A stretch of DNA of 64,000 nt, taken from NCBI RefSeq assembly GCF_006517175.1, contig NZ_CP041186.1, forward strand, positions 7,529,074 through 7,593,073, in the 5' to 3' direction. Below are positions 11,303 through 47,947 of the stretch, in pieces. The notes beneath the pieces are model-generated. The model did no database searches and had not been told where the DNA came from. It was given only the letters and a program-made list of their open reading frames with translations. The position numbers and the translations under genes are program-made. This DNA is from Persicimonas caeni. Its GTDB lineage: Bacteria; Myxococcota_A; Bradymonadia; Bradymonadales; Bradymonadaceae. The stretch's first letter is position 1. Each line of letters opens with the position of its first letter.

Positions 11303-12847
11303 ATGGCGAAAGCCACAGCGAAGACGCGCCAGACCGATGTGGTCATTGTCGGCGGCGGCCTGGCCGGGCTGACCGCAGGCATCGGTCTGCAGCGCGAAGG
11401 CCTCGATGTGGTGGTACTCGAAAAAGACAAGCGCTTGGGCGGACGCGCTCAAAGCTGGACCGATGAGACCACCGGCGACCCGGTGCATATCGGCCCGCAT
11501 ATCTTCCTGACCGAGTACCCCAACATGTTCAAGCTGTTGGACCTGTTGGGGACGCGCGGCGACATCGTCTGGGAGGACGAGCACTTCATCGTGCTCGCCG
11601 ATGGGTCCGAGCGACTGGTTCAGGAGCAATACCCGCTGCCTGCGCCGTTTCACTTCGCCCCGACGATGATGGCCGACCCGCGGGCGCGGACCCGCGACAA
11701 GTTGTCGAATCTGGCCGTCACCCTGTACGCCATGCAGATGGACGAGCGCGACGTGATGCGCCTCGACGGCATGAACGCCTACGCCTTTTTGCGGCGCATG
11801 GGGGTGACCAAGGCGTATATCGACCAGTTCTGGTCGTTTGCGTGCATGGCGATCATGAACGTGCCCATCGAGGTCTGCTCGGCGGGTGCTCTGATGCGCT
11901 TTTTCCAGAAGTTCATCGGCTATGACACATTCTCCTTCGGGTTTCCCGATGGTGGCCTGGGCGACTTGTTTGCGCCGGCGGCCAAGCAAGAGATCGAGCG
12001 CGCCGGTGGAGAGGTGAGGCTTCGCACCGAGGTGTCGCGACTGCGCGTGGAAGGCGAACGTGTGGTCGGCGTCGAGCTCGCCGACGGCACGACCATCGAG
12101 GCGAAGCACACCGTGGCGGCCGTCCCACCGCAAGTGTTGCGGAATCTAGGCCCGAGACAGTGGATGGGCGAGTACGAATGGTACCGCGAACTGGTCCACT
12201 TCCATCCGTGCCCGTACGTGAGCGTCTTTTTGTGGTTCGACGAAAAGATCACCGACCTGCGCATGTGGGCGCGCACACACTCCCCGGACGACCTCAACTG
12301 CGACTTCTACGACCTCTCCAATATCCACACCGGCTGGAGAGAACGTCCGTCGGTAATCTGCAGCAACATCATTTATTGTCACCGCACTGACGGGATGACT
12401 GACGAAGAGATCGTGCGCCACACGGTCGCCGAGATCGCCGAGACCCATCCGGCCGCGTCGATGGACCACCTCGAGCACTACGTCGTCAATCGAATCCCGA
12501 TGGCGATTCATTGCCCCTATCCGGGCACCGAGAAGCGGCGGCCCGTGACCGATCCGGGGGTCGAGGGGCTGGTGCTGGCGGGCGACTTCGTGCGCACCGA
12601 ACTCCCCTCGTCGATGGAGAGCGCGGTGTGCTCGGGGTGGATGGCCGCCGAAAAGATCCTCGAGCAGCGCGGCCACAAAAAGCAACTCCACGTCGAACAC
12701 CGAGACCTCGACGGGCTGACCGGCCTCATCAGCCGCACGGCCAAGCTCTTTCCGACCAAAGGCGCACAACGCATCATCCACGGGATGCGCCGAACGCTCG
12801 ACGAGACGCCCCTTCTAACGCGGCCGGCTGACCCAGTTAACAAGTGA
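11303..12847 (+). CDS. FAD-dependent phytoene desaturase/HpnE-like amine-oxidase-family oxidoreductase
   Basis: Flavoprotein of 514 residues in the family of zeta-carotene/phytoene desaturases and the squalene-associated enzyme HpnE. The N-terminal motif VVIVGGGLAGLTAGIGL (13-29) followed by VVLEKDKRLGGRAQSW binds FAD. The C-terminal motif (GVEGLVLAGDFVRT) completes the flavin site. It starts at an ATG after GGAGG-type sequence (ACGGAGGCGCC). The next gene is a methyltransferase-like protein, so a small tailoring pair for an isoprenoid is possible. No phytoene/squalene synthase or other carotenoid gene lies nearby, so the substrate stays open. Confidence 0.78.
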   Translation: MAKATAKTRQTDVVIVGGGLAGLTAGIGLQREGLDVVVLEKDKRLGGRAQSWTDETTGDPVHIGPHIFLTEYPNMFKLLDLLGTRGDIVWEDEHFIVLADGSERLVQEQYPLPAPFHFAPTMMADPRARTRDKLSNLAVTLYAMQMDERDVMRLDGMNAYAFLRRMGVTKAYIDQFWSFACMAIMNVPIEVCSAGALMRFFQKFIGYDTFSFGFPDGGLGDLFAPAAKQEIERAGGEVRLRTEVSRLRVEGERVVGVELADGTTIEAKHTVAAVPPQVLRNLGPRQWMGEYEWYRELVHFHPCPYVSVFLWFDEKITDLRMWARTHSPDDLNCDFYDLSNIHTGWRERPSVICSNIIYCHRTDGMTDEEIVRHTVAEIAETHPAASMDHLEHYVVNRIPMAIHCPYPGTEKRRPVTDPGVEGLVLAGDFVRTELPSSMESAVCSGWMAAEKILEQRGHKKQLHVEHRDLDGLTGLISRTAKLFPTKGAQRIIHGMRRTLDETPLLTRPADPVNK

Positions 12848-12900
12848 ACGAGTAAAGAAGTGAATGAGTAAAAAGTGAATGAGTAAAAAGTGAATGAGTG
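12842..12900 (+). repeat. Four tandem 15-bp units (AAAAGTGAATGAGTA type)
   Basis: A purine-rich array begins inside the last codons of the oxidoreductase gene and ends just before the GTG of the next gene. The last three units are nearly identical and the first has one substitution and a length change. It is A-rich in a GC-rich setting and contains several GTGA words. Confidence 0.85.
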
Positions 12901-15788: not shown

Positions 15789-15792
15789 GGAA

Positions 15793-15888
15793 GCAAAGGA
15801 GCAAAGGAGCAAAGGAGCAAAGGAGCAAAGGAGCAAAGGAGCAAAGAAGCAAAGAAGCAAAGAAGCAAAGAAGCAAAGGAGCAAAGGA
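15793..15888 (+). repeat. Twelve tandem 8-bp units (GCAAAGGA / GCAAAGAA)
   Basis: A perfect octamer array: six GCAAAGGA, four GCAAAGAA, then two GCAAAGGA. It starts five bases after the stop of the membrane-protein gene. The minus strand reads as a leucine/phenylalanine-rich frame, which I consider meaningless. Confidence 0.95.
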
Positions 15889-16018
15889 GCCACCGCCTGG
15901 AAACAGAGAAATCGTGGCTAGGCGGCTATAGGGCCGGGGGTTACGCAACAAAATCGGACTTTTGCCGATAACCGTAATAGAGGGGGGTTACGGGACAGAT
16001 TCCAGGCAAGGTCATACG

Positions 16019-19269: not shown

Positions 19270-19377
19270 GAAACTTAGGGTGACTAAGGGGGACTTAGGG
19301 AAACTAATTCACGAAACACGCACGTGGCTACTCTGAGTCGCTCTTAGTTACCCTTAGTCCCTCTTAGTTTCCCTTTG
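19270..19377. repeat. Inverted repeated-word element between ndk and rlmN
   Basis: The left arm repeats words like ACTTAGGG and ACTAAGGG (19270-19307). The right arm repeats the complement, CCCTTAGT and CTTAGTTTCCC (19340-19377). Together they can form a long imperfect hairpin around a loop containing CACGTG. It may terminate ndk transcription, but no clean T-run follows. Confidence 0.6.
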
Positions 19378-34100: not shown

Positions 34101-34355
34101 ACGAGGGCAAGATGCCCCCGCACCGATTACGAGGGCAAGATGCCCCCGCACCGATTACGAGGGCAAGATGCCCCCCGCACCGATGACGAGGGCAAGATGC
34201 CCCCCGCACCGATGACGAGGGCAAGATGCCCCCCGCACCGATGACGAGGGCAAGATGCCCCCGCACCGATGACGAGGGCAAGATGCCCCCGCACCGATGA
34301 CGAGGGCAAGATGCCCCCGCACCGATGACGAGGGCAAGATGCCCCCGCACCGATT
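34101..34355. repeat. Nine-copy tandem array of 28-29 bp hairpin units
   Basis: Each unit contains GAGGGCAAGATGCCC and a CGCACCGAT spacer. The first of nine copies begins at 34103, spaced 28, 28, 29, 29, 29, 28, 28 and 28 bases. The length change comes from an extra C in some units. Each unit is itself a short hairpin (GGGCA, AGA loop, TGCCC). It fills the gap between mscS-family and bPH2 genes on the minus strand. Confidence 0.95.
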
Positions 34356-35241
34356 ACGTCTCAATAACTGGTTGCGCCTTCTCGACGTGCTTCGACGGGC
34401 TCTCGGGCGCCGCAGGCGCGCTCGGCTCGCCGTAGACGTGGTGGACGACGCGTTGCGGGAACGGAATCTCGATCTTCGCCGCCTCGAGCGCCTCTTTGAT
34501 GGCCTGCGTAAGCTCACTCTTGGCGGTGATGAAGTCCTGGCGCACCACCCAGGCGCGCACCACCAGCGTGATACCGCTGTCGGCGAGCAACTCGACGAGC
34601 ACCGCCGGCTCCGGCTCGTCGAGCACGGCTTTGTGGTCGCGCATCACCTCTTTGAGCACGCGTTGAGCCTCGCCGAGATCGGTCGAGTACGCAACCGACA
34701 CGGGGATATCGATGCGGCGCACCTCGAAGAGCGTGTAGTTCGTGATCGTGCTCTTGAGCAGCGCCTCGTTGGGGATGCGCACCACCAGGTTGTCGAACGT
34801 GCGCACCTTCGTGCTCAGCAGGTCGACGTTGACAACCGTGCCGATGGTCTGGTCGATCTTGACGGTGTCGTTGATCGAAAAAGGCCGGTCGACGAGCAAG
34901 AATAGGCCCGAGATGACGTTCGAGACGCTCGTCTGCGCGGCGAAGCCGATGGCCACCGTAAAGATGCCCGCGGCGGTGAGCAGGCCGGTCAGCTTGACGC
35001 CCAGTTGGGTGAGCGCACCGAACGTGGCGAGCAGCAGGACCACGTAGAAGACGACCTTCTTGCCCACCGCGGCGCCGTGCTCGGAGCCCTGCTGGCGCAT
35101 GAAGCGCTCGACGCCCTTGGCCAGGCTGCGCGCGAGCACCCAGCCGACCACGAAGATGAGCAGCGCGACGACGTACGTCTCGATGCTCTGGGGGCTGAAA
35201 ATCTCGCCGATTTTCGTCGTGATATCGCTCAGTACTTTCAT
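34354..35241 (-). CDS. Small-conductance mechanosensitive ion channel (MscS family)
   Basis: Tension-gated channel that protects against hypo-osmotic shock, 295 residues (E. coli MscS 286). Three N-terminal helices: about 20-40, 62-82 and 90-110, the last ending in a glycine/alanine-rich pore segment (LTAAGIFTVAIGFAAQ). The beta domain has RPFSINDTVKIDQTIGTV and the RIPNEALL element. The start is an ATG three bases after the stop of the DUF432 gene, so the two are coupled. The stop falls at the edge of the hairpin array. Confidence 0.94.
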   Translation of the reverse strand: MKVLSDITTKIGEIFSPQSIETYVVALLIFVVGWVLARSLAKGVERFMRQQGSEHGAAVGKKVVFYVVLLLATFGALTQLGVKLTGLLTAAGIFTVAIGFAAQTSVSNVISGLFLLVDRPFSINDTVKIDQTIGTVVNVDLLSTKVRTFDNLVVRIPNEALLKSTITNYTLFEVRRIDIPVSVAYSTDLGEAQRVLKEVMRDHKAVLDEPEPAVLVELLADSGITLVVRAWVVRQDFITAKSELTQAIKEALEAAKIEIPFPQRVVHHVYGEPSAPAAPESPSKHVEKAQPVIET

Positions 35242-37780: not shown

Positions 37781-38536
37781 TCAGTCGATGACCTTGCCGG
37801 TCGCTTCAAGGTAAATCGCGTTCAAATCACGATACTCGCCGCCGGCGAGCATGTCTTCGAGCTCGTCGCGGCTCAGGTCGCGCTCGAGCTTGCCGTCGAC
37901 CATGATGACCACCCGCGAGCAGATGCGCTCGAGCATGTCGAGGATATGGCTCGACAGCAGAATCGCGCCGCCTTCGTCGCAGTAGCGCTGCAGGCGCCGA
38001 CGGATGCGAAGCGTCGACTCCGGGTCGAGGCCGACGAACGACTCGTCGAGCAGCAAGAGCTCCGGCGGGCCGATAAGCGCCGCGCAGATGGCGATCTTGC
38101 GGGCCATGCCGCCCGAATACTCCTTCACAACCCGGTCGCGGGCGTCGGTCAGCTCGGTAAGTTCGAGTAGTTCTTCAACTTGTCGGTCCTGCTCGGCGCC
38201 CTCGACGCCGCGAATCTGGGCGACAAAGCGCAAGAACTCGTCGCCGGTCAGGTAGTCGTACAGGTCGAGGTCCTGGGGCACGAACCCGATATGGCGGCGC
38301 GCCTCGACGGGATTCTCGACCACGTCGACCCCGGCGACCTCCACCGAGCCGCCGTCCGGCGCCAGGATGCCCGCCACGCAGCCCATGGTGGTCGATTTGC
38401 CCGCGCCGTTCGGCCCGATAAACCCGACAAACTCCCCGGCGGCCACGTCGAGCGAGAACCCGTCGACGGCGGTCAGGCGCCGGTAGCGCTTGACGAGGTT
38501 GCTGATATGAAGGCGTGTTTTGTTCGTGTCGTTCAT
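37781..38536 (-). CDS. ABC transporter ATP-binding protein (ABC-2 exporter type)
   Basis: Cytoplasmic ATPase of 251 residues. Walker A (GPNGAGKS) is at 41-48, the Q-loop near 90, the signature YSGGMARKI near 142, and Walker B LLLLDES near 163 followed by the D-loop and a conserved H-loop histidine (LLSSHILDML). The sequence type is that of multidrug/NatA-like exporters. The cognate permease is most likely the 510-residue membrane protein at 41001-42533 on the same strand, separated by the 611-residue protein. Substrate unknown. Confidence 0.93.
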   Translation of the reverse strand: MNDTNKTRLHISNLVKRYRRLTAVDGFSLDVAAGEFVGFIGPNGAGKSTTMGCVAGILAPDGGSVEVAGVDVVENPVEARRHIGFVPQDLDLYDYLTGDEFLRFVAQIRGVEGAEQDRQVEELLELTELTDARDRVVKEYSGGMARKIAICAALIGPPELLLLDESFVGLDPESTLRIRRRLQRYCDEGGAILLSSHILDMLERICSRVVIMVDGKLERDLSRDELEDMLAGGEYRDLNAIYLEATGKVID

Positions 38537-38602: not shown

Positions 38603-40438
38603 TCAGATGACCTCCACGTCGTCGGCGTCGAGCCAGTGGGTCTCCCCATCGTCGCCTTTGATGCCCACGCGCTTGCCCGGCCCGAATTTGCTGTCGCCGA
38701 ACCAGAACACACGCCCCTCGACGCCCTCGTTTTTTCCGCTGGTGACGCGCACACGCGATCCTTTCCCAAGGGCGTCGCTTTCGGTGGACTCGTCGGCGCC
38801 GGAGGGCTCTTGCGGCGGCCCCATCTGCTCGGGGACGTCGGGAAGGGGGGCTTCGCCCAGTATCTGACGCATCAGCAGGATCGCCTCCGAGCGGAGGTCG
38901 GCCGGGAGTTGGTCCCACCCGGATGTCTTCTCCGCTGCGTGCACCGGCCCGTCGTGTTCGGTACGTCCGAGCCGAAACTCTTCGATTTGGACCGGGCGGC
39001 TCGGCCCGCCGTAGCCGTCACCGTAGCCGTTGTGCTTGATGTAGAGCTGGCGGTCACCCATGGCCAGGTAGGCGTGGGTGGTGTTGGCGCTGCGGCGGTT
39101 GCGCCCGCTTCCGTAGTCTTCTGCGAGCAACCCGTACAGGGCGAGCTGTCGGGCGCGTTCTCGCCACAGGTCGTGCGCGAGTGGCTCGACGGGCAGCTCG
39201 GGCAGGTCGTCGCTGTCGAGGACCGAGCGTGTGCGCTGTGAGAACTGGTCTTCAAGGGGCACATCGGGCCAGTCTTCGAGATCGGTGGCCGGATGTGCCA
39301 ACACGAGCGTGTCGTCGGGGCCGAGGCGCACGGTGCCGTCTGCGTCGACGAGCTTGCCATCCTGGACCCAAACCAGCCGCCCCTCGTCGGTGCGAAAGAC
39401 CGCGCCCTCGACGGCGTCGCGAGCCACAGGATGCCACAGGTAGTTATTGCGCAGGTGGTAGTACCCAAAGGTGCGCCGCTGCGCGAGTGCTCGCTCGAGG
39501 GTGTGGACGGCCATCGCCTTCCAGAAGTCCAGCGTGCCGCTGGGCTCGTCCTCGCGCGGCCAGTGCCGCTCGAGCATGTCAGGCGGGTGCGGCAGGCCCC
39601 AACGCGCCCGCCACAGCACGTAGCTCTCGGTGCGGTCGACGCCGCGTACGCTTTCGAGCGGTCGGCGCAGCCCACCGTCCATCTTGAGGGCGCCCAACGC
39701 GTCGACGGCGACCTTGCTCCCCTCGGGGATACTCGCCTGCAAGGCATCGGGAAGACGCTGGCGGACCACCCAGCGCACGAAGGCGGCGAGGCTCTCGTCG
39801 GAGAGCCCCGGCGTGACCAGCTCGGCAGCGCCGCGCACCGGCTTGTGGCGCGCCTCGTCGGGCGCCAAGCCGCGCTGGAAATAGTGCGTCTCGGAGAGCA
39901 GATGGGTGGTGTACCAGCGGACCGCCGCCTCGCTCAGGGCCTCGCCGTTGCGCCACGCGAGCTGCGGCGCGCCGTCGGGCAGGCCGGGGCTCGGCATGTC
40001 GATCTCGGCGAGCAGGGCGTCGAGGCGCACGTAGTCTTCGTCGACGACGAGCTCCTCGACGACATAGGGGCTCGGATAGACGAGGGAGTTGAAGACGTCG
40101 TTGTAGAAATCGAGGCGGGCGCCGTGGACCTGCAAATAAGGCCGAAGGGCGCCGTGGTTCAACGGCGGGTGGCGGTCACCGTCGCTCCAGGCCACCGCCA
40201 TCGCGGCGACCTCCTCGCGAACCTCCGAGACGCTCAGCTCGCAAGCCTGGGCGAGCTCGGCGAACGGAACGACGCGGCCCTGGTCGTCTTCGAGCACCTC
40301 GCGGATACGCGCCCACACCTGGCGGTCACTCGTGGCCCGCGCGGCGAGTTCTCGTTCGGCGCGGCGCGGCTCGGGCGCCCAGGTGCGCGCATCGTTGCGC
40401 CCGTCTTGGCGAGGGGGATCGAGGGTCTTCTCTGGCAT
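38603..40438 (-). CDS. Large protein of unknown function with a C-terminal KOW/SH3-like segment
   Basis: Soluble protein of 611 residues from the ATG at 40438 (an upstream extension is arginine-rich and not convincing). The N-terminal 100 residues are helical and contain a winged-helix-like segment (VVPFAELAQACELSVSEVREEVAAM). The long central part has many Trp and Tyr residues and no membrane helix. After an acidic linker the last 55 residues read GKGSRVRVTSGKNEGVEGRV, a KOW-like or SH3-like barrel. I do not recognise the family. It lies between the ATPase and permease genes of an exporter, 66 bp from the ATPase, so a role in that system is inferred. Confidence 0.7.
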   Translation of the reverse strand: MPEKTLDPPRQDGRNDARTWAPEPRRAERELAARATSDRQVWARIREVLEDDQGRVVPFAELAQACELSVSEVREEVAAMAVAWSDGDRHPPLNHGALRPYLQVHGARLDFYNDVFNSLVYPSPYVVEELVVDEDYVRLDALLAEIDMPSPGLPDGAPQLAWRNGEALSEAAVRWYTTHLLSETHYFQRGLAPDEARHKPVRGAAELVTPGLSDESLAAFVRWVVRQRLPDALQASIPEGSKVAVDALGALKMDGGLRRPLESVRGVDRTESYVLWRARWGLPHPPDMLERHWPREDEPSGTLDFWKAMAVHTLERALAQRRTFGYYHLRNNYLWHPVARDAVEGAVFRTDEGRLVWVQDGKLVDADGTVRLGPDDTLVLAHPATDLEDWPDVPLEDQFSQRTRSVLDSDDLPELPVEPLAHDLWRERARQLALYGLLAEDYGSGRNRRSANTTHAYLAMGDRQLYIKHNGYGDGYGGPSRPVQIEEFRLGRTEHDGPVHAAEKTSGWDQLPADLRSEAILLMRQILGEAPLPDVPEQMGPPQEPSGADESTESDALGKGSRVRVTSGKNEGVEGRVFWFGDSKFGPGKRVGIKGDDGETHWLDADDVEVI

Positions 40439-41000
40439 GGTCGCGTCCCGTGCAAAGGTGATGTTGTGTGGGCCGCTTTTGTAACTGATAGGCGACTCTG
40501 TCGACAAGGGAGGGCTCAACTCCCCGGACTCCCTTCGCTTCGCTGCGGTCGCCCGGGGCTACCGAGGCCTTCGTTTCGCTGCGCTTCACTCCGGCGCGGC
40601 GCAAACTACGCGCCTTGGCGGCCCAATTGTCCTCCATCGTCAACTCGGCCACCAAGGCGCCGTCGTCCGGCGCCGCGCCGAGCGCTGTCCGCGAGGCCTC
40701 GGTAGCCCGGGGCGACCGTAGGGAGTCCCGGGTCGACATTTGCAGGGGCGCCCGAGGTTTTGCGAGGAGGTTTCAGAGGGTCCCGAAGACGTTTCGAGAC
40801 GTCGCAAAGTCCCCCGGAGATTTGGAAGGGGCTCCCGGAGATCTTACAGGGACGTGCGGAGAGCTTGCAGCAAGGCCCGCGGGCGTTGCAGGGGCGCCCG
40901 GTGACTTACGAGCCGGCCCGGAGCGTTTCGAAGACGATTCGAGTCGTCGCGAACCAGCCCGGAGCGCTTCGAGGGCGTTTCGAGTCGTCGCGAGGACGAT
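40439..41000. other. 562-bp gap with a long inverted repeat and a 21-bp-period array
   Basis: No minus-strand gene is credible here, although the neighbours on both sides are on the minus strand. The first part holds a long-range inverted repeat (40523-40732) and the second part a degenerate 21-bp repeat array. Plus-strand open frames cover both but lack support: the array phase slips break any fixed heptad frame. Confidence 0.75.
40523..40732. repeat. Long-range inverted repeat
   Basis: The left arm (about 40523-40570, with GGTCGCCCGGGGCTACCGAG) pairs with the right arm (40694-40732, with CTCGGTAGCCCGGGGCGACC). The arms match along about 35 bases with small gaps and flank about 120 bases. 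Confidence 0.7.
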
Positions 41001-41042
41001 TCAGGAAGTCGCAAGCTCGCGACGCTCGATTACAGCGACGTG
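40751..41042. repeat. Degenerate array of about 13 units with 20-21 bp period
   Basis: Recurrent starts CCGGAG, GCGGAG or TCGAG come every 21 bases, with two 20-base steps. Clear copies start at 40814, 40835, 40856, 40877, 40898, 40918, 40959 and 40980 (examples: CCGGAGATTTGG, CCGGAGATCTTAC, CCGGAGCGTTTCG). The array runs into the last codons of the permease gene. It is strand-asymmetric and not a CRISPR: there are no unique spacers. Confidence 0.75.
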
Positions 41043-42533
41043 TCCCAGCAGCAACACCACCTCGGCGACGGCCATCGCCCACAGCGAGACGTTCGCCAGG
41101 GCGACCAGCCCGATGGCGGCGACGAGGGGCACGAAGAGCTCGGCGACGCGGGAGCGGCCGGCGAGGCGCCAGGCGAGGGCCATGGCGCCGTTGAGGGCGA
41201 GGCAGGCGCCCGCGGCGAGCGCGGCGTAGGCGAGGCCTGTGAGCCAGTCGCCGTAGCGTACGCCCTGGGCGAGGAGGACGAGCAGGGCGTAGGGGGCGGT
41301 CACCAGCAGGCATTCGCGTACGGCGAAGACGACCGCGGCGGCCAGGTCGGCGTTTTGGGGCAGGGCGAGCAGGTTTTGGTAGGTCGGGCGGATGCGCGGG
41401 GCGGAGAGGCGCACCCACGGGTTGACCAGGGTGGCCGCGGCGATGGCCGGCAGCGTGACGACGAGCCAGCCGGGCAGGGCGGCTTCGCTCAGGCGGAAGA
41501 CGGCGATGCCGGCGGCGAGCCAGCCGAGCCCGTAGGTCCAGCGGGCGAGCATGTAGCGGCGGCCAAATTGGAGCGCGTAGGCGCGAAAGACGACCCGGGC
41601 GGCCTGCGGGAGCAGGGTTTCGCCGAGGCGTTTTTTGCCGAACTCGCTCTTTTGGTGCTGCGCGGAGACCTCGTAGCCGACGAAATCGGCCTCGTGGAAG
41701 CGCGCGGCCATGCGGGGGAAGCCGGCGACGAATTGGCGGTACGAGACGACGATCGCGACGGCGAAGGACGCGCCCAAGATACCCAGGCCCACACTAAAAG
41801 CACGAGTGGGCTCGCCGGCCTTGATGACCTCGCCGAGCACGAGCTTGGCGAGGAGGATGACGATGACCGAGACGGCCAGGGCGACGCCCGGGGAGTACAA
41901 AAAGACCTGGCCTGCGCCGCCGTAGATGTCGCGCGTCTCGCCCTTGCGCTTGTCATCTTTGGTGCGCGAGGGCTTGCCGGTCATCGTCGAGCCGGCGCTC
42001 AGTTGCACCGCGAAGCCGATGGCCGAGCTGGTGAGCAGCCCCAGCGCCATGAGCGCCACGCAGGTGGCCGCGGCCAGCCCGCCGCCGTGCCACCACAGCG
42101 GGATGAAGAAGGGGGCGAGCAGCAGGGCGGCGCCCAGCGCCTCGCCGAGGGCGGCGAGGAGGCGGTCGACGTACAGGGCGTACAGTTTTAGCGGGTAGGG
42201 CTCGACGGCGCGGATGTCCTTTCGGCGAAAGAGGAGCTCCATGACCCGGAAGTTGAGCACCGAGGAGGCCAGGGCAGCCAGCCAGAAGGCGGCCTCGAGC
42301 GCGGCGGCGCCGGCGGGCAAGCTCTCGTCCTCGCCGGCCACGCCCATGGCGGTGACCACGTCGGCGGGCGGCTCGAGCAGGCCGGGGGCGGCCGCGTGGC
42401 CCAGCGCGCCGAGGCCGCCGACGAGCACGACGATGGCACCTACGAGCGCCGCCCACCAGCGCGCAGAGCGCCCCGAAGCGCGGTTTCGCAGCCCGGCGAG
42501 TCGCGCTCTCATCAAGATGCCCAGGTGAGTCAT
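41001..42533 (-). CDS. Polytopic membrane protein, probable ABC-2 exporter permease
   Basis: Integral membrane protein of 510 residues with about 12 hydrophobic segments in two halves, split by a cytoplasmic loop near 195-215 (TMTGKPSRTKDDKRKGE). The N-terminal motif LGILMRARLAGLRNRASG and the NFRVMELLFRRKDI segment (93-106) are typical of large exporter permeases. It is the natural partner of the ATPase at 37781-38536. Its ATG shares bases with the stop of the TPR lipoprotein gene (TGATG). The 3' end overlaps the start of the 21-bp array. Confidence 0.8.
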   Translation of the reverse strand: MTHLGILMRARLAGLRNRASGRSARWWAALVGAIVVLVGGLGALGHAAAPGLLEPPADVVTAMGVAGEDESLPAGAAALEAAFWLAALASSVLNFRVMELLFRRKDIRAVEPYPLKLYALYVDRLLAALGEALGAALLLAPFFIPLWWHGGGLAAATCVALMALGLLTSSAIGFAVQLSAGSTMTGKPSRTKDDKRKGETRDIYGGAGQVFLYSPGVALAVSVIVILLAKLVLGEVIKAGEPTRAFSVGLGILGASFAVAIVVSYRQFVAGFPRMAARFHEADFVGYEVSAQHQKSEFGKKRLGETLLPQAARVVFRAYALQFGRRYMLARWTYGLGWLAAGIAVFRLSEAALPGWLVVTLPAIAAATLVNPWVRLSAPRIRPTYQNLLALPQNADLAAAVVFAVRECLLVTAPYALLVLLAQGVRYGDWLTGLAYAALAAGACLALNGAMALAWRLAGRSRVAELFVPLVAAIGLVALANVSLWAMAVAEVVLLLGHVAVIERRELATS

Positions 42534-47596: not shown

Positions 47597-47947
47597 GTCG
47601 GCGGCTACAGGGGGGCAACGGATCGGGTGATGCCGCCGGCAAAAAGTTGCGCAACATCACCCAAACAGCACGAAATAATTTAGAACTCGCAATGTGATAG
47701 CACTGCGGAGGGTGTCGCCGCAAGATCGTGCTATTTTTGCAGACAAACTACAATTTGGGGGTCGAGAATCGGAAGTGGTCCAAAAACGCGCGCTATTTTT
47801 GCAGACAAACTACAATTTGGGGGTCGAGAATCGGAAGTGGTCCAAAAATGCGCGCCATTTTTGCAGACAAACTACAATTTGGGGGTCGAGAATCGGAAGT
47901 GGTCCAAAAACGCGACCCTCAAGATGTAGTTTGTCCGCCCAAATAGA
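47597..47947. other. Intergenic region carrying the 62-bp tandem repeat
   Basis: The gap separates the symporter start from the end of the outer-membrane protein gene, both on the minus strand. Most of it is the triplicated 62-bp unit. I found no gene in the rest and no convincing promoter for the symporter. Confidence 0.7.
47730..47915. repeat. Three tandem copies of a 62-bp unit
   Basis: Copies start at 47730, 47792 and 47854 and are almost identical. Each contains TTTTTGCAGACAAACTACA and GGGGGTCGAGAATCGG. At 47925-47938 the sequence TGTAGTTTGTCCGC is the inverted counterpart of GCAGACAAACTACA from the units, with one mismatch, closing the array. Confidence 0.95.

Follow-up and report, generated by a model that had tools for sequence, protein, structure and literature searches.

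In type II partition centromeres, parC is built of tandem repeats, each about one or two helical turns long, which the small adaptor protein ParR binds in side-by-side copies that form a superhelix. REP sequences and their RAYT transposases offer a second precedent, in which a protein gene stands beside repeats whose sequence differs between families. The class of arrays described here resembles ParR-parC in the length of its tandem repeats, but no ParM-like ATPase or ribbon-helix-helix protein was recognised with it, and its arrays are chromosomal, occur in several copies per genome and have unit sequences that are unrelated between loci. At the locus studied, no gene for a ParM-like actin ATPase or an adaptor was found among the neighbours in the window (the whole stretch of 64,000 nucleotides of Persicimonas caeni DNA that was analysed). 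Protein genes beside repeats that differ between families are shared with the RAYT/REP systems, whereas no Y1 transposase domain was found in X and Y, two protein families linked to our arrays, and the repeats are tandem and helix-phased; no Y1-type transposase lies by the window array, whose neighbours encode a DUF4132 protein and a permease. The PQLLE family (NCBIfam NF052641), for which no paper was found in the open-access literature, gave weak, sub-threshold matches to W (E=0.0011), V (0.06) and X (0.15), which are proteins that neighbour arrays; these scores are far under the family cutoff, and Y and Z gave no match. CRISPR arrays are likewise intergenic repeat arrays, but the units at this locus are contiguous at 20-21 bases with no spacers, in agreement with the initial annotation, which had set CRISPR aside.

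A degenerate array phased to the DNA helix

The features around the array are as follows.

37781-38536, minus strand: ABC ATPase (Pfam ABC_tran; synteny), adjoining the permease in relatives and separated from it here by an insertion
38603-40519, minus strand: lineage-specific gene with a weak DUF4132 domain (Pfam PF13569, E=3e-8) and a KOW-like tail
40510-40735, no strand: inverted-repeat element with 31-base arms, 90% complementary and 123 bases apart, and outer arms of 16 bases
40739-41015, plus strand: degenerate tandem array (cyclic profile score 99; lag-21 identity; unit steps)
40909-40993, plus strand: latest internal duplication in the array, 41 bases (20+21) x 2.1, 86% match (TRF)
41001-42533, minus strand: permease gene (ORF; homologues in 29 of 39 genomes, own included), its last 15 bases overlapping the array

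The array is 277 bases of non-coding DNA made of 12-13 units with a weakly conserved consensus of about TTGCAGGGGCGCCCGGAGATC (21 bases, or two half-units of about 10.4). Its match fraction at lag 21 was 0.491, compared with 0.274 +/- 0.027 in 1000 dinucleotide shuffles, none of which came up to this level at lags of 5-70, and extra peaks at lags 10, 31, 41, 52 and 62 indicate the half-unit of about 10.4 bases. Under a cyclic 21-state model the array scored 99, while the best score elsewhere in the window was 12. The unit steps (eight of 21 bases and four of 20) average 20.67 bases, which is two helical turns, and AA/TT/TA/AT steps recur with a 10.4-base phase (R=0.44, n=37), so that the units lie along one face of the helix as had been supposed. 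We have high confidence that the array and its helical phasing are real. The initial annotation had thus recognised the period of about 21 bp, which it proposed to check against shuffled sequence, and the overlap with the end of the permease gene, where the array runs into the last 15 bases of the reading frame (stop codon at 41001); its borders (40751-41042) needed correction, as the array starts about 12 bases earlier and ends 27 sooner, and it had seen two 20-base steps where we counted four. Default TRF reports just the 41-base double unit at 40909-40993 (score 128) and misses the rest because the unit copies are too degenerate. An RNA element was also considered and ruled out, as Rfam gave no match above gathering score on the array (only sub-threshold eukaryotic microRNA matches) and the folding z-score was -1.7.

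The neighbouring exporter, which the initial annotation had pointed out, is incidental, because relatives carry the permease-ATPase pair without an array. In three of them (G008, G006 and G003) the two genes are adjacent and follow era and a TPR gene, with a gap of 123 bases between permease and ATPase in G008, whereas in P. caeni the array, the inverted-repeat element and the DUF4132 gene are wedged between them. The permease had no Pfam match, and a scan of genome contigs with it as query gave none either. The DUF4132 gene has its 5' end toward the array and was absent from all four family genomes tested. The inverted-repeat element abuts the array; blastn against a 20% sample of the genome recovered the element itself as an inverted self-match, plus one short match elsewhere. 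Near the array, neither an X or Y gene nor a remnant of one was found, and tblastn with X, Y, Z and W detected no adjacent gene there.

Other tandem repeats occur in the window. At positions 34101-34358 a 28-base unit is repeated in tandem (9.1 copies, 98%), and the array has a GGGCAAGATGCCC hairpin; its family has 13 arrays in the 20% genome sample. Positions 47727-47914 hold three copies of a 62-base unit with ACAATTTGGGGGTCG and GACAAAC motifs, from a dispersed family with seven arrays in the sample. Purine-rich arrays, of kinds that recur in this genome, lie at 15792-15890 (8-base unit AGCAAAGG, 12 copies) and 12838-12899 (15-base unit TAAAAAGTGAATGAG). Arrays of 10 bases of the ACTTAGGGGG kind are found at 19273-19375, with a similar ACTAAGGGGG in L066 (667-733), and in genome G021 arrays of 10-11-base units (GTTGCAAGGGC / GTTGCGAGGC) lie within a dispersed repeat (L137 2465-2575; L148 2013-2111).

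A sibling array and the protein families beside such arrays

A protein search of the own genome with the translated array hit a single further location, G000:7839157-7839402, which is interrupted by a stop and, when read as DNA with the cyclic profile, is a second array (L002:1561-1831). The two arrays align with 136 identities over 205 bases (66%), in the same unit order, with one whole-unit gap and with 20-base units common to both. The local alignment score was 53, compared with 31.7 +/- 6.0 when units were shuffled, the largest of 300 shuffles reaching 59; the 10.4-base phasing of the sibling array is weaker (R=0.33). The unit sequence of the window array was found at just these two places in the genome. 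The earlier expectation that many such arrays would stand near other genes holds for the array class and fails for this particular unit.

By the definition used for the class, a member is a tandem array in intergenic DNA whose period equals two or four helical turns, as is true of the window array, and which lies next to an X, Y or Z gene, as the sibling array does. The sibling lies directly 3' of an X gene (G000:C1:7838387-7839136) encoding a protein of 249 residues, which had no NCBIfam match and whose gene was absent from the 13 other family genomes searched. This gene has four paralogues in its own genome and three homologues elsewhere, two of them in G021 and the third in G024, with no further members in 282 genomes of the phylum, and no member of the family gave a significant match in Pfam, NCBIfam or PHROGs. 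An array of 20-21-base units lies directly 3' of six of the eight X genes: all but one of the five paralogues in P. caeni, the single G024 homologue and one of the G021 pair. The remaining paralogue and the second G021 homologue lack it. At four X genes in P. caeni an apparent terminator, read by eye, stands between gene and array. The units of these arrays are mutually unrelated (mean pairwise score 8.1, versus 8.0 when shuffled). With the seed locus left out, arrays were present at 5/7 X genes versus 8/582 reference genes (p=4.5e-8), a value that is approximate because the reference genes, like the Y loci, were read at the TRF threshold and the X arrays with a lower score floor.

Intergenic arrays in the 20% genome sample are concentrated at periods of 41-42 and 20-21 bases, and we do not claim a general quantisation of array periods at 10.4, since the best period in a Rayleigh test was not 10.4. 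The genes flanking four of the 41-base-array loci form one family, Y, all four members of which in the genome sample have a 41-base array upstream (one has an interrupted reading frame). Y is present in 40/377 genomes of the phylum, in 30 genera. In other genomes, an array of 40-43 or 81-86 bases was found within 1.5 kb of 19/29 Y loci versus 0/24 controls (p=1.7e-7), a count that may include some 81-86-base matches in coding sequence at distances above 1 kb, and within 300 bases of 11/29 versus 0/24 (p=4.5e-4). Among genes of similar length, 36/442 in the own genome and 5/116 in G008 had such an array within 1.5 kb. About one-third of Y loci showed no array at the threshold used, and arrays of 20-22 bases were in no excess (1/29). 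At orthologous Y loci of three sibling species, the upstream 41-42-base array was kept in all three. There is no common second gene at Y loci, and a scan of genome contigs with Y as query gave no match. Overall, the association of X and Y with arrays has good support.

Family Z has arrays of 42-43 bases on the 3' side at all three loci examined, one of them in another genus. X, Y, Z and W had no significant Pfam match, and no DNA-binding domain was recognised in the proteins neighbouring the arrays; a plasmid search returned no X or Y match and a phage search no Y match. Profile comparison gave no support to X, Y, Z and V as a single superfamily. A search with the unit model led to G032, a genome of another family, with eight loci of twin inverted 21-base arrays (about 190-350 bases each); the likeness of this unit to the window unit is not evidence of homology, as the search selected for it. 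Of these intergenic elements (L142, L170-L176), four have HNH/DUF222-like genes nearby and three a WYL-like regulator, which is followed by the further protein V, these gene identities being read from sequence and not by domain search. Neither palindromic units nor inverted twin arrays were retained as features of the class: the former held for the two Z units tested and for some few other units, with X arrays and most Y arrays lacking them, and the latter were seen at some loci of the own genome and at all eight in G032, with none at the window array.

Twin inverted arrays of 41-43 bases in P. caeni lie at L019 14975-15277, L227 3891-4178 and L217 6574-7099. In G008, L047 (14657-14861) and L046 (9742-9864) are related 41-42-base arrays with a GTTCTAGAAC palindrome.

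Candidate explanations for the window array

The reading that we favour, and to which we would give about even credence, is that the window array is a non-coding, helix-phased member of a class of chromosomal arrays that stand beside genes for unannotated partner proteins and are coated by them. In this class the array stands beside a gene whose product, unannotated and about 250 residues long, is probably mostly helical, and such arrays occur in the organism's taxonomic class and in other lineages of its phylum. The period is characteristic of the protein family, at 20-21 bases (two turns) for X and at 40-43 or 81-86 bases (four turns) for Y and Z, while the unit sequence varies from locus to locus, so that the spacing is kept and the letters are not. 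The cognate protein may coat its own array cooperatively on one face of the DNA and build a nucleoprotein body, much like ParR on parC. It would make contact every two or four turns, each protein reading its own unit; spacing would then be under selection, and the recognised letters would drift along with the protein. We have moderate confidence in this binding mechanism. A protein-binding array was among the options of the initial annotation and is the best-fitting one, with X and Y as candidate protein families. The window array itself is probably a solo copy that is related to the array 270 kb away at the X gene and came in together with the insertion into the exporter operon or at its edge, and it may be a distant site for that X protein or a relic; our confidence in a present function of this copy is low.

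Its degeneracy and its want of a partner gene would also suit a functionless satellite born by slippage, in which the helical repeat sets the length of duplications and the product is tolerated and decays in intergenic DNA, and tandem arrays, varied in kind and period, are indeed abundant in the intergenic DNA of this genome. Such an origin leaves unexplained why four-turn arrays track Y across genera, why two-turn arrays track X and how three species come to retain an array at an orthologous locus, and we regard it as unlikely, though far from negligible. The position of the window array at the border of an insertion points in another direction, namely that it is the edge or relic of a mobile element that brought the DUF4132 gene (or, at other loci, an X gene) into conserved operons, and that it once served transposition or recombination. 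The gene by the sibling array is also lineage-specific, and the twin inverted 21-base arrays of G032 lie near HNH-like and WYL-like genes; however, no transposase or recombinase was recognised in X or Y, the Y loci lack a common second gene, and the plasmid (X, Y) and phage (Y) searches were empty, which makes this origin improbable. The DUF4132 gene starts about 300 bases away with its 5' end toward the array, and Y arrays are often upstream of their gene; still, it is quite improbable that the array is an upstream control region of the DUF4132 gene, since the sibling array follows its X gene on the 3' side, the DUF4132 protein shows no relation in family or length, and no sigma-70-like site was found in the region. 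Finally, a decayed coding (heptapeptide) repeat, the other option that had been raised, is almost certainly wrong even though two forward frames are open through the array in the ORF listing, because mismatches between window and sibling arrays are even across codon positions (25/69, 23/68 and 21/68), the 20-base steps break a heptapeptide frame and preserve helical phase (as the initial annotation had argued against a plain coding repeat), the sibling copy contains a stop codon, no conserved protein in relatives covers the array, and its translation had no Pfam match and, among 57 genomes (own included), no match outside its own genome save a spurious antisense match to dnaJ in one.

With the protein-coated array class as the preferred reading, conserved spacing together with changing sequence points to an undescribed protein-DNA system. 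The proteins and arrays match no described system in the libraries and open-access papers searched, and the newness is claimed for the array class, the window copy alone being one degenerate array. A wider reading is possible, although we lean slightly against it: the phylum would hold a family of orthogonal pairs, in which orphan helical proteins each read a helix-phased chromosomal array of their own, with the spacing of two or four turns fixed by the protein family and the sequence specificity renewed at each duplication; one of these pairs would have the window array as a remote site. If the proposed class is real, "hypothetical proteins" across the phylum would gain a testable function, with the DNA target beside their own gene, and the arrays would be a rare case of selection on the spacing of a DNA element and not on its letters. 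They would then help in studies of changes in protein-DNA specificity and of the organisation of bacterial chromosomes.
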